A stretch of 64,000 bases of DNA from Paludibacter propionicigenes WB4 (lineage in GTDB: Bacteria; Bacteroidota; Bacteroidia; Bacteroidales; Paludibacteraceae): NCBI RefSeq assembly GCF_000183135.1, contig NC_014734.1, forward strand, positions 1,798,001 to 1,862,000, read 5' to 3'. Below the pieces are notes generated by a model. The model saw nothing but the letters and a program-made list of their open reading frames with translations, was not told the DNA's origin and did no database searches. The position numbers and the translations under genes were made by a program. Shown piece after piece: positions 5,316 to 42,119 of the stretch (positions within the stretch are counted from its first letter, which is position 1; each line of letters opens with the position of its first letter).

Positions 5316-6374
5316 CTACTTCATTATTTCCTGTTGATGTCTTACCGATTCCTCGTGAATTGCAACTAAAACAGTTTTCATAAACTCACCATCCATACCC
5401 ATTTCGACAGCCTGAGAAATACGATTTTGTAATATTTCATCGTACCGTTGTGCCTGCAAAATAGGCATATTATGCTCCTTTTTATACAACCCAATTTCGT
5501 CAGACACTCTCATTCGTCTAGCCAGCAATTCGAGCAAGCTATTGTCCAATTCATCAATCTGGCGACGCAACGCTGTCAAACTTTCAGTAGATTGACTCAT
5601 ATCACGAATCACCAAAGTGTTCAGTATAAAATCAAGGACATCGGGCGTAACCTGCTGTGCGGCATCGCTCCATGCTTTGTCCGGATGACAATGTGATTCA
5701 ACGATCAAACCATCAAAATTCAAATCCATAGCCTGCTGACATAGTGGCGCTATCAACTCACGCTTTCCACCGATATGACTTGGATCGCAAACTATCGGCA
5801 AGTTAGGCAAACGACGATGTAATTCGATAGGAATATGCCATTGCGGTAAATTGCGGTAAATTTTCTTATCGTAAGTACTAAATCCGCGATGTATAGCCCC
5901 AATACGACGAATACCTGCATTATAAACACGTTCGATAGCTCCAATCCACAAATCCAAATCAGGATTAACGGGATTTTTAATCAATACAGGAATATCTATA
6001 CCTTCCAAAGCATCTGCTATTTCCTGAACAGCAAAAGGATTAGCCGATGTTCGTGCACCGATCCAGAGTATGTCAACATCGTTAGCCAAACACTCGCGCA
6101 CATGCTTAGCAGTGGCAACTTCTACAGCTGTATACATTCCAAGTTCAGATTGTACACGCTTAAGCCATGGCAGACCCTCAGCTCCTATTCCTTCAAAACC
6201 TCCCGGCTTCGTACGCGGTTTCCATATACCGGCACGAAAGATTTTGATACCGCGGGCAGATAATCCACGGGCGGTTTCCATTACTTGTTCTTCTGTTTCG
6301 GCACTACATGGTCCGGCTATAACGAGCGGACGCTTAGCATCTACTCCTGGTAATAAAATTGATTCTAATTCCAT
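5316..6374 (-). CDS. Bifunctional DAHP synthase / chorismate mutase (type II)
   Basis: A 352-residue fusion. Residues 1-255 are a DAHP synthase of the KDO8P-synthase-like class (VIAGPCSAETEEQV, FRAGIWKPRTKPGGFEG, KNPVNPDLDLW, CDPSHIGGKR); it condenses PEP and erythrose 4-phosphate. Residues 265-352 are an AroQ-type chorismate mutase helical domain (LTALRRQIDELDNSLLELLA, then RRMRVSDEIGLYKKEHNMPI). This fusion is typical of Bacteroidetes, where the mutase domain also mediates allosteric inhibition. It is the last gene of the pheA/aminotransferase/DAHP synthase operon and so falls under the attenuator at 8558-8691. A tyrA gene, often next in Bacteroidales, is absent. Confidence 0.93.
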   Translation of the reverse strand: MELESILLPGVDAKRPLVIAGPCSAETEEQVMETARGLSARGIKIFRAGIWKPRTKPGGFEGIGAEGLPWLKRVQSELGMYTAVEVATAKHVRECLANDVDILWIGARTSANPFAVQEIADALEGIDIPVLIKNPVNPDLDLWIGAIERVYNAGIRRIGAIHRGFSTYDKKIYRNLPQWHIPIELHRRLPNLPIVCDPSHIGGKRELIAPLCQQAMDLNFDGLIVESHCHPDKAWSDAAQQVTPDVLDFILNTLVIRDMSQSTESLTALRRQIDELDNSLLELLARRMRVSDEIGLYKKEHNMPILQAQRYDEILQNRISQAVEMGMDGEFMKTVLVAIHEESVRHQQEIMK

Positions 6375-6486: not shown

Positions 6487-7668
6487 TCATTGTTGACCGG
6501 CAATCGATAACTGCTTAATACGCTCGAGTGCATCGCCCAGCATTTTATCATTAGCACAAAGTGACAAACGCACATATCTGTTTCCTTTATCTCCAAAAAT
6601 GAATCCCGGTGTGATGAACACCTTCGATTCGTACAGCACTTTATCGGCAAGCTCGCCACTGTCTTTATACTTTGCTGGTATTTTCCCCCACAGAAACATT
6701 CCCACCTGTTTGCTATCGAATGTACACCCAAGCGTTTTCAGAATTTCTTCGGCCAACTGCCGACGGTTACTGTAAAGTTCGATATTCATTTTTGTGTGCC
6801 ACTCTTCGGAGTTATTCAAAGCCGCAACGGCTGCCACTTGCATAGGTTTAAATTGCCCGCTGTCAATATTGCTTTTCACTTTCAATACCCACTGCACAAA
6901 CTGTGGGTTTGAAGCCAGCACTCCCATACGCCAACCGGGCATATTGTGCGATTTGCTCATCGAATTCAACTCAATACAAATATCTTTGGCTCCCGGCACC
7001 TGAAGAATACTCAATCTGTTTTCATTCAGAATAAAACTGTAGGGATTATCGTTACAAATAACGATTCCATGCTTCTTACCAAATGCAACTAACTTTTCAA
7101 ATAATTCGGGCGTGGCACTTGCACCCGTAGGCATATTCGGATAATTGACCCACATAAGCTTTACGTTTGACAAGTCCATCTTTTCTAAAGCCTCAAAATC
7201 GGGTTGCCAATTATTATCTTCATCCAAATCATACGTCAACACCTTTGCCTGTACCAGGTTACTTACAGAAGAGTAAGTCGGATAGCCCGGATTAGGCACC
7301 AACACACCATCGCCGGGATTCAAGAAAGCCAATGAAATATGCAGAATACCTTCTTTTGAGCCAATAAGCGGCTGGACTTCATTTGCCGGATTTAATTCTA
7401 CCGAAAACCACTTTTTGTACCACTCGGCAAAGGCATTACGCAATTCGGGAATTCCCACATAAGGTTGATATCCGTGTGCTTTATCATCTGTAGCTGACTG
7501 GCACAAAGCTTCAATTGTTTCAGCAGATGGTGGTAAATCCGGACTACCAATTCCCAAACTAATCACATTCATGCCTTTAGCATTCATTTCGGCAATTTCC
7601 TTCAGTTTGGTTGAGAAATAGTATTCAGTTATTGAACTTAAACGTTCAGCAGGTATAATTGGTTTCAT
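6487..7668 (-). CDS. PLP-dependent class I/II aminotransferase (aromatic/aspartate type)
   Basis: A 393-residue fold-type I aminotransferase: SLGIGSPDLPPS at the N-terminus, LVPNPGYPTYSS, VNYPNMPTGA, CNDNPYS, and the PLP-lysine region ELNSMSKSHNMPGWRMG. Its place between prephenate dehydratase and DAHP synthase/chorismate mutase suggests it transaminates phenylpyruvate and hydroxyphenylpyruvate, though related enzymes make LL-diaminopimelate or aspartate, and specificity cannot be read from the sequence. It starts 19 bases after pheA ends, with 112 bases to the next gene, all on the minus strand. Confidence 0.88.
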   Translation of the reverse strand: MKPIIPAERLSSITEYYFSTKLKEIAEMNAKGMNVISLGIGSPDLPPSAETIEALCQSATDDKAHGYQPYVGIPELRNAFAEWYKKWFSVELNPANEVQPLIGSKEGILHISLAFLNPGDGVLVPNPGYPTYSSVSNLVQAKVLTYDLDEDNNWQPDFEALEKMDLSNVKLMWVNYPNMPTGASATPELFEKLVAFGKKHGIVICNDNPYSFILNENRLSILQVPGAKDICIELNSMSKSHNMPGWRMGVLASNPQFVQWVLKVKSNIDSGQFKPMQVAAVAALNNSEEWHTKMNIELYSNRRQLAEEILKTLGCTFDSKQVGMFLWGKIPAKYKDSGELADKVLYESKVFITPGFIFGDKGNRYVRLSLCANDKMLGDALERIKQLSIAGQQ

Positions 7669-7687: not shown

Positions 7688-8533
7688 TTAAACCTCCGGT
7701 GTAATACCTTCGGGATATTCTCCTAATGTTCTTAATTCGTTTATCAAAGGCTTTATAGCTACCAAAGATTGTTTGTAGCGCTCCAGGTCATCAAACTTAA
7801 AATCTACATAAAACTGGTATTCCCATTCGCGACCGATAATCGGCAAAGACTGAATCTTTGTAAGATTAATTCCATAAAACGAGAATACTGACAAAACTTT
7901 GGCCAAGCTACCTTCGGCGTGAGGTAAGGTGAATACAATAGAAGCTTTATTTATGACTTCATCTTTTTGTATATCCTCTACTGCCCAGTCATTTCCAAAG
8001 ATAAGAAAGCGCGTAAAATTATGTTTGTTTGTTTCAATACCTTTTGCCAGAATGTTCAATCCATAAATTTCAGCTGCGCGCTCACTACAGATGGCAGCAT
8101 TCCCTATCAGATTTTTATTCTGTATATCTCTGGCGGCCAATGCTGTATCTTCGTGCTCTACCACTTTGACACCGGGCAGAGTTTCTAAAAAATTTCCGCA
8201 CTGCATTAAAGCAATAGGGTGAGATTGAACTTCTTTAATTTCATGAATAGTCTGCCCTGGCAAAGCCGCAAAACAATGAGAAATGCGTAATTTATACTCT
8301 CCTGCAATATGTAGTTTGTGCTCCTTGAGTAATTCATAGTTCTGTAGAAGACTTCCGGCAATCGTATTCTCAATAGCCATTATGCCAATAATATTTGAGT
8401 CTTTTTTGATGGCTGAAAAAATATCCCGAAAAGTGACACATGGAATTATGTCCACATCTTCGCCTGCAAAAAAGTTTTCTGCTGCAATTCCATGATACGC
8501 ACCCAGTCCACCTTGAATAGCTACTCGTTTCAT
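7688..8533 (-). CDS. pheA: Prephenate dehydratase (PheA)
   Basis: Makes phenylpyruvate from prephenate. The catalytic domain (about 1-180) starts MKRVAIQGGLGAYHGIAAEN and holds IENTIAGSLLQNYELL and the TRFLIFG end motif. A C-terminal ACT domain (about 195-280) has KASIVFTLPHAEGSLAKVL and LTKIQSLPIIGREWEYQFYV, the phenylalanine-binding feedback site. It is a stand-alone dehydratase without a mutase domain, consistent with the mutase being fused to DAHP synthase downstream. The frame extends to 8593, but that stretch is the terminator hairpin of the attenuator, so the ATG at 8533 is the start. First structural gene of the aromatic operon. Confidence 0.95.
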   Translation of the reverse strand: MKRVAIQGGLGAYHGIAAENFFAGEDVDIIPCVTFRDIFSAIKKDSNIIGIMAIENTIAGSLLQNYELLKEHKLHIAGEYKLRISHCFAALPGQTIHEIKEVQSHPIALMQCGNFLETLPGVKVVEHEDTALAARDIQNKNLIGNAAICSERAAEIYGLNILAKGIETNKHNFTRFLIFGNDWAVEDIQKDEVINKASIVFTLPHAEGSLAKVLSVFSFYGINLTKIQSLPIIGREWEYQFYVDFKFDDLERYKQSLVAIKPLINELRTLGEYPEGITPEV

Positions 8534-8557: not shown

Positions 8558-8590
8558 AAAAAAATCCTGCTCATTATTGAGCAGGATTTT
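8558..8590 (-). terminator. Attenuator terminator upstream of pheA
   Basis: On the minus strand, AAAATCCTGCTCA (8590-8578), loop ATAA, TGAGCAGGATTTT (8573-8561), with the T-run continuing to seven T. It is a perfect 13-bp stem lying 25 bases before the pheA ATG and downstream of a Phe/Tyr leader peptide, so it should stop transcription before the operon unless the antiterminator forms. Confidence 0.88.
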
Positions 8591-8628
8591 CATGTATTCT
8601 TATTTATAGATTGTTTTTACATAATAAT

Positions 8629-8637
8629 ATCCTGCTC
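8629..8637 (-). promoter_or_regulatory. Antiterminator segment of the pheA attenuator
   Basis: Minus-strand GAGCAGGAT begins at the base right after the leader peptide stop codon. It is identical to part of the 3' arm of the terminator and so can pair with ATCCTGCTC (8587-8579), the terminator 5' arm. A ribosome waiting at the stop codon would cover it; one stalled earlier in the Phe/Tyr codons would leave it free. Confidence 0.8.
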
Positions 8638-8691
8638 TCACCTATTAAAGTAAAAGTAAAAATAAAAATATGTAAAAAATCGGTTTACCAT
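8638..8691 (-). CDS. Phe/Tyr-rich leader peptide of the aromatic operon
   Basis: A 17-residue ORF, MVNRFFTYFYFYFYFNR, stop TGA. Six Phe and four Tyr make 10 of 17 residues aromatic, in an alternating run. It begins about 30 bases after a good -7 promoter element and ends directly before the antiterminator segment, with the terminator 48 bases further on. The layout matches enterobacterial pheL-type attenuation: ribosome stalling at scarce Phe-tRNA or Tyr-tRNA would favour the antiterminator and expression of pheA, the aminotransferase and DAHP synthase/chorismate mutase. There is no clear Shine-Dalgarno, as usual in this phylum. The use of both amino acids fits an operon feeding both branches. 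Confidence 0.85.
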   Translation of the reverse strand: MVNRFFTYFYFYFYFNR

Positions 8692-8719
8692 AATGATTGT
8701 CTCTTTTTTCTTAGACGCA

Positions 8720-8751
8720 GCAAAAGTAATATTATTTTTTAATTATACAAC
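8720..8751 (-). promoter_or_regulatory. Promoter of the pheA leader and operon
   Basis: Minus-strand TACTTTTGC (8728-8720) matches the TAnnTTTGY -7 consensus, with GTTG (8751-8748) 19 bases upstream at the -33 position. Initiation near 8713 would leave a leader of about 20 bases before the leader peptide ATG. Confidence 0.75.
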
Positions 8752-42031: not shown

Positions 42032-42119
42032 GGAGAGGTGCTCGAGTGGTTGAAGAGGCACGCCTGGAAAGCGTGTATACCCCTAAAGGGTATCGAGAGT
42101 TCGAATCTCTTCCTCTCCG
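42032..42119 (+). tRNA. tRNA-Ser (anticodon GGA)
   Basis: An 88-nucleotide class II tRNA. The acceptor stem GGAGAGG pairs with CCTCTCC (42112-42118), discriminator G. The anticodon stem CACGC/GCGTG encloses the loop CTGGAAA with anticodon GGA at 42066-42068, reading UCC and UCU. The long variable arm TATACCCCTAAAGGGTAT is typical of serine tRNAs, and the T-loop GTTCGAATC is intact. The CCA end is not encoded. Confidence 0.97.

Follow-up and report, generated by a model that had tools for sequence, protein, structure and literature searches.

What controls the operon that begins with pheA in Paludibacter propionicigenes WB4? The question is posed by a short region ahead of this gene in the window, by which we mean the whole 64,000-nucleotide stretch of DNA that was analysed, taken from a genome of 3.69 Mb in a single contig. 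The initial annotation had placed on the minus strand of this region a promoter element, a leader open reading frame (ORF), an antiterminator strand A, a terminator with its T tract and the start of pheA, and all of these coordinates held on re-examination. From 5' to 3' the features are as follows.

8748..8750, minus strand: possible -33 TTG, read from the sequence, 19 nt 5' of the -7 element; TTG is the consensus at this position
8721..8728, minus strand: -7 element TACTTTTG, a motif match that fits TAnnTTTG
8638..8691, minus strand: leader ORF MVNRFFTYFYFYFYFNR, 17 codons with 6 Phe and 4 Tyr, then TGA; read from the sequence and kept in relatives
8669..8678, minus strand: protector 5' strand TTTTTACATA, codons FFTY, pairing with 8623-8614
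8629..8637, minus strand: antiterminator strand A GAGCAGGAT, directly 3' of the stop; from sequence, covariation and constrained folds
8614..8623, minus strand: TATGTAAAAA, protector partner of the leader codons; from pairing prediction and constrained folds
8624-8618, minus strand: extended antiterminator, able to pair with 8596-8590; from constrained folds
8590..8596, minus strand: TACATGA, partner of 8624-8618 in the antiterminator fold; from constrained folds
8579..8587, minus strand: shared strand B ATCCTGCTC, core of the terminator 5' arm; from pairing, covariation and constrained folds
8564..8572, minus strand: strand C GAGCAGGAT, core of the terminator 3' arm; from pairing, covariation and constrained folds
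8558..8564, minus strand: T tract, where the attenuated RNA is predicted to end; read from the sequence
7688..8533, minus strand: pheA, prephenate dehydratase (domain match, PF00800)
6487..7668, minus strand: class I/II aminotransferase (domain match, PF00155)
5316..6374, minus strand: DAHP synthase/chorismate mutase fusion (domain match, PF00793 and PF01817)

Re-reading bore out the earlier description of a 17-codon ORF with ten aromatic residues, its TGA touching the antiterminator strand, and of a 13-bp terminator followed by seven T (8564-8558). The helix has 13 perfect pairs at 8590-8561, or 14 if a G-T pair at 8591-8560 is included, and the terminator lies 24 nt before the start of pheA at 8533. 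Domain matches show that the proposed gene order, pheA, aminotransferase and DAHP synthase/chorismate mutase, was right. An alternative pheA start at the in-frame ATG 8593-8591 was rejected; because its frame crosses the terminator, and because the open frames of full-length relatives span 281 to 330 amino acids, we prefer the start at 8533. The 143-nt leader and the 53-nt terminator piece both fold better than shuffles (z = -6.6 and -6.7), and a truncated antiterminator piece, folded by itself, gains nothing over its shuffles (z = -0.5).

Judged from its sequence, the element is very probably a ribosome-mediated transcription attenuator, with charged tRNA-Phe and tRNA-Tyr as the signals that it reads. 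It has a run of codons for the end products (10 of 17 codons are Phe or Tyr, and such leaders form 150 clusters), an intrinsic terminator that lies between the ORF and the first gene and shows covariation, and an antiterminator predicted to exclude the terminator through a shared strand; as a prediction only, leader codons also pair with the antiterminator region (the protector, 1:2). Transcription would start near 8715. When Phe or Tyr is short, a ribosome would stall in the run of aromatic codons and mask the leader codons of the protector stem; A would then pair with B, no terminator would form, and transcription would read through into pheA, the aminotransferase and the DAHP synthase/chorismate mutase gene. 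With both amino acids plentiful, the ribosome would reach the stop at 8638 and cover A, B:C would form and transcription would end at about 8558. In the absence of a ribosome, the leader codons would pair with the A region and the terminator would form. The initial annotation had proposed folding both alternative states as a check. When the window leader is folded under constraint with a ribosome footprint of -15 to +12 nt, A and B form 9 pairs for a stall at codon 6, 9 or 12 and 8 for a stall at codon 15; a ribosome at the stop leaves no A:B pair.

The leader is a class-wide element found in most of the sampled Bacteroidia and not a local oddity. Counting loci with at least 200 nt upstream and scoring a leader as present when it has at least six aromatic residues in ten, we found it before pheA in 42 of 43 relatives, in 75 of the 78 named Bacteroidales loci, in 29 of 30 loci from the phylum, own genome included, and in 26 of 60 further phylum regions. 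These 30 loci and 60 chosen regions make up the 90 examined out of 258 phylum genomes with pheA; a search for relatives retained the best 80 out of 588. When the 60 regions are divided by the kinship assignment of each PheA match, the leader is present in 24 of 28 from the same class and in 2 of 32 from other classes, and the 30 other-class regions without it serve as a negative control for the leader scan. The presence counts leave out L083 (less than 200 nt upstream) and L003, L041 and L072 (less than 120 nt upstream), and the cluster counts leave out the duplicates L047, L049, L096 and L128. One locus scored as a miss, L033, has an upstream stretch that stops at a contig edge, and its kin L034 and L038 have the leader further upstream. 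The four in-class misses among the 28 regions (L171 and L189-L191) all belong to family f34; L246 and L247 are further loci without a leader. In the leaderless lineages G135 and G332, a DAHP synthase gene was not found in the stretch after pheA.

Outside the class, leaders stand in G215, G125, G073 and G342, whose PheA scores (E 1e-101 or better) are like those of the class itself; at loci L131, L147, L180 and L183, which belong to other classes, a leader likewise precedes a class-like pheA. Because the PheA of these leader bearers scores like the class's own, the pattern suggests that the operon or gene and its attenuator were transferred together. A leader was not found in two other-class genomes with a high-scoring PheA, G334 and G314, in a comparison that leaves out G192.

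The competing helices are conserved along with the leader. An A strand and a terminator that share arm B occur in 131 of the 150 leader clusters, against 1.1 expected from dinucleotide shuffles; the strict finder reports no A/B/C triple in the other 19, several of which miss by one mismatch. For covariation we aligned 48 rows, picked for diversity from 94 eligible references and all having the triple, a choice that favours the percentage of paired cells. This percentage is 97.4% in the terminator helix and 91.1% in the antiterminator helix; slid controls drop to 30-54%. Double-change cells number 59 in the terminator helix against 9.5 in shuffles, and 40 in the antiterminator helix against 14.2. 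Covariation is seen at the shared strand itself, where column 116 varies with column 137 (UA, CG, UG) and with column 42 (AU, GC, GU). Two other measures, pair count and pair type, are weak for the antiterminator, being equalled by 53 and by 404 of 500 shuffles. Matching the A cores of some loci with the B cores of others is a weak test, since the same cores recur within lineages and 2883 of 10162 such combinations pair fully. Leaders and covarying stems upstream of pheA in other Bacteroidales had been named at the outset as a check; leaders occur at 75 of the 78 named loci, and both helices of the 48 aligned leaders covary. In 122 of 148 clusters the promoter motif TAnnTTTG lies between -80 and +30 relative to the leader ATG, against 9% in mononucleotide shuffles.

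The geometry refines the part first assigned to the stop codon. Across the class, the conserved spacing is measured between the antiterminator and the last aromatic codon, and the stop codon does not set it: in the leader clusters, 5-18 nt separate A from the last aromatic codon (median 10, sd 2.2), and the ORF ends anywhere from -5 to +45 nt relative to the start of A (sd 12.7). The stop codon directly precedes A in some lineages only, and many others, such as Bacteroides and Flavobacterium-like leaders, have A inside the ORF. The initial claim that a ribosome at the stop codon blocks the antiterminator therefore fits the window leader, with its lack of A:B pairs in that state, and fails as a class-wide rule.

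Which amino acids are sensed can be considered in relation to the genes behind the leader. Of the 69 named loci that have 4.6 kb or more of downstream sequence, 57 hold pheA, aminotransferase, DAHP synthase/chorismate mutase and tyrA in this order, and the window operon is a reduced form of this four-gene operon with tyrA. The window genome has its tyrA at another place, where inspection by eye showed no leader upstream, and 19 of 21 other genomes of the genus with a tyrA match have tyrA and pheA on different contigs. Leaders of the genus retain Tyr codons where read, and DAHP synthase, needed for both products, remains in the operon of the window genome. Among 68 named loci (L083 left out), leader and DAHP synthase are both present at 65 and both absent at two; one has only the leader, and none has only DAHP synthase (Fisher p 0.0013). 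Some loci run counter to the pattern: L053 has a leader with Tyr before pheA and the aminotransferase, with DAHP synthase and tyrA not found nearby; L146/L243 has DAHP synthase and no leader; and at L116 pheA stands alone with no leader at all. Mixed Phe/Tyr control is probably ancestral to the four-gene operon with tyrA.

The most telling evidence comes from operons that have split, where nature itself has varied the codons along with the genes. An RNA model derived from the leader alignment matched 40 of 42 genomes, a match by construction for the many leaders that are in the alignment. At E up to 1e-4 it gave 37 hits, one per genome, of which 36 lie before pheA. The single other hit, in G053, precedes tyrA and DAHP synthase with the leader MNNTFGYYAFYYYFFYNN (six Tyr, four Phe). 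The pheA leader of the same genome, MTRFFTHFFFFFTQQ, has no Tyr in its codon run, and none of the other three genes was found in the 8-kb stretch around that pheA. A second split, in G377, came from a search of 79 relatives of G053. Here pheA, with none of the other pathway genes in its 7.4-kb stretch, follows the leader MRRNSFRFFFFFAFFFCNGRNGVSYLY, whose two Tyr lie only beyond the codon run, and a second leader, MIKNISVFAYFYYYFYFSKK, precedes the aminotransferase, DAHP synthase and tyrA. In three further operons pheA is missing from the sequence covered, and the leaders are MSENTRTYYYNYYRLKPGGGVLC in G389, MTNHSRTYYYYYFGKWPCGKTMV in G048 (a genome 79% complete, in which pheA was not found) and MKLSTLYYWFYFYLDITAGMEKNCN in G405. 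Second leaders, MINIHKYHTYWYYYRYR in G389 (L314) and MNDNIHTYRFFYYYYYVYYE in G048 (L315), stand upstream of aminotransferase-tyrA-DAHP synthase. Since each of the four Tyr-rich leaders of these two genomes has the A/B/C triple, we read them as two attenuator units in tandem per operon; the strict finder calls no triple at the G405 leader. Twelve model hits outside the leaders (E 7e-5 to 1e-2) were set aside, none having an aromatic leader before pathway genes (L255-L261, L293, L294, L306, L310 and L311; L290, L303, L304 and L308 are not among them).

The codon run lacks Tyr in both pheA-alone leaders (G053 and G377), compared with 0 of 149 other pheA leaders. As a share of Phe plus Tyr, Tyr makes up 0.56-1.0 in the five operons without pheA, against a mean of 0.41 (0.20-0.67) in the 149 pheA leaders (Mann-Whitney p about 1e-4, in a test that ignores shared descent), a comparison made after the fact on few genomes and with some overlap, as 4 and 11 of the 149 mixed leaders reach the values of G053 and G377. 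G387, at first left out because its operon is cut by a contig end, was then added back. Its leader MAPVHTYYAWSFFFFYFQNKRGHAV (L317, G387:C51) has the full triple and precedes tyrA near the contig end with no pheA between; its Tyr share is 0.375, and with it included p = 0.001. We consider it likely, with some reserve, that the leader is an ancient, class-wide, either-or sensor of Phe and Tyr whose codons were rewritten when the operon was rearranged, becoming Phe-only after pheA split off (G053 and G377) and Tyr-rich or Tyr-only with tyrA and DAHP synthase but no pheA (G389, G048 and G405). If this is true, sequence alone shows which amino acids a control element answers to in the course of its operon's evolution.

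Could the Tyr codons instead be there for the RNA, in a leader that senses Phe only? Codons near the start of the aromatic run pair with a strand shortly 3' of A, as in the window (TTTTTACATA/TATGTAAAAA), L117 (CAATTCATAT/ATATGAATTG) and L031 (ACACAC/GTGTGT). In a cross-locus test of this protector pairing the own partner was better in 95 of 131 leaders; as this was only moderately decisive, a synonymous-codon test was added. The ensemble energy of leader plus antiterminator region lies below that of synonymous recodings in 128 of 131, the helix from leader to the strand after A is better in 104 of 131, and the probability that A pairs with the leader is 0.72 versus 0.59 for the recodings (higher in 115 of 131), all by sign tests that ignore shared descent. 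Synonymous codon choice thus appears to favour a third pairing, the protector, which was absent from the first reading. Such RNA-level selection on codon choice, and the frequency with which [T/A]Y-type leader codons build the protector stem, are what a Phe-only sensor would have in its favour, its Tyr codons being present because TAY suits RNA pairing. We nevertheless regard it as improbable: at least two Tyr occur in 149 of 150 clusters, Tyr is gone from the codon run of the two pheA-alone leaders and prevalent in the five operons without pheA, and the Tyr-less leader of L031 keeps its protector-like pairing. Because leader codons tend to match the genes behind them, the leader very probably senses shortage of both Phe and Tyr.

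Genes of this kind are under other sensors in other phyla, and a ligand-binding riboswitch, a T-box or an RNA-binding protein might likewise run the terminator here, with the ORF incidental. We hold this to be very unlikely, since no Rfam family scores above its gathering threshold at the leader, and conservation falls on the ORF, on its aromatic content and on its distance from A, with codons that track gene content. The T-box model is in Rfam, and it matched neither the window nor the 11 pheA-upstream loci. The sole Rfam match in the window at gathering scores is a tRNA gene at 42032-42119 on the plus strand.

The aromatic run by itself is not rare, as seven consecutive aromatic codons match four times in the window genome, leader included, and a backward control of the pattern eight times; the other three runs were not leader-like by eye. 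Short ORFs and terminators are common as well, yet an ordinary terminator beside a chance ORF, or an unregulated standing brake, is scarcely credible given that both helices covary, that conservation is class-wide and that 148 of 150 leader clusters have at least seven aromatic residues in ten. The attenuator first proposed, in which stalling at Phe or Tyr codons would free the antiterminator, thus appears the best reading on the strength of conservation, covariation at the shared strand, selection on pairing at the codon level and codons that follow operon content.

Leader-peptide attenuation is a textbook mechanism, and Vitreschak (2004) is said to have named some Bacteroidetes attenuators. 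Beyond the pheA leader, the window genome has a leader MTSQRLYTILVLVVLLLVNNQR with a stop before ilvD (L232, G000:C1 from about 159570), with GGTGAGA and, in the terminator, TCTCACC seen by eye; it is likely a branched-chain amino-acid attenuator of similar layout, although the strict triple finder did not call it. No His leader before hisG and no Thr leader before the aspartokinase/homoserine dehydrogenase gene was seen by eye in this genome. Rfam holds a Bacteroidete tryptophan peptide leader, RF01692 (Bacteroid-trp), which shares phylum and logic with the window leader and differs in its Trp codons, its genes and its sequence. A scan of 14 loci with RF01692 matched only the trp leader at L229 and none of the 11 pheA-upstream loci. 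This trp leader of the window genome, MNSILTVNKFWWWHLRIS, lies before trp genes at L229 474-611 (G000:C1:3448473-3448610) and scores 62.5 bits.

Naville and Gautheret (2010) state that, to their knowledge, Proteobacteria and Actinobacteria were the only phyla in which leader-peptide systems had been shown, ermC excepted, until they added a case in Firmicutes. In Flavobacterium psychrophilum and further Flavobacteriaceae, Guerin et al. (2021; PMC9723704) describe a structured 5' element ahead of pheA that is unexplained, and they report clues to leader-peptide attenuation before amino-acid operons. Gene and phylum are common to that element and ours; the portions of their paper available to us give no leader sequence, Phe/Tyr content or spread past Flavobacteriaceae. 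A study of five bacterial genomes (PMC6429828) lists, in the sections seen, two candidate uORFs that contain Phe and Tyr and lie close to shikimate genes, and so resemble our leaders as short Phe/Tyr ORFs before genes of this pathway; those sections do not name the species and mention Bacteroidetes once, as a symbiont's partner. A class-wide mixed Phe/Tyr leader with re-tuned codons is undescribed in the open papers searched and would be a widespread new case of ribosome-mediated attenuation. It concerns an entire class, with members in gut, soil and water, on whose amino-acid control we found little in print, and the element could become an Rfam family.

The enterobacterial pheA attenuator, with its leader peptide PheL and regulatory Phe codons, shares with the element described here a leader of cognate codons, a strand shared between antiterminator and terminator, and a position before the prephenate dehydratase gene. 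The two belong to phyla far apart, and the leader here has no Rfam match. The regulatory codons of PheL are Phe, whereas those here are mixed Phe and Tyr, and the operon here includes DAHP synthase and usually tyrA. One predicted attenuator would thereby govern the first step of Phe and Tyr synthesis and, where the operon has its usual four genes, the two terminal branches as well.
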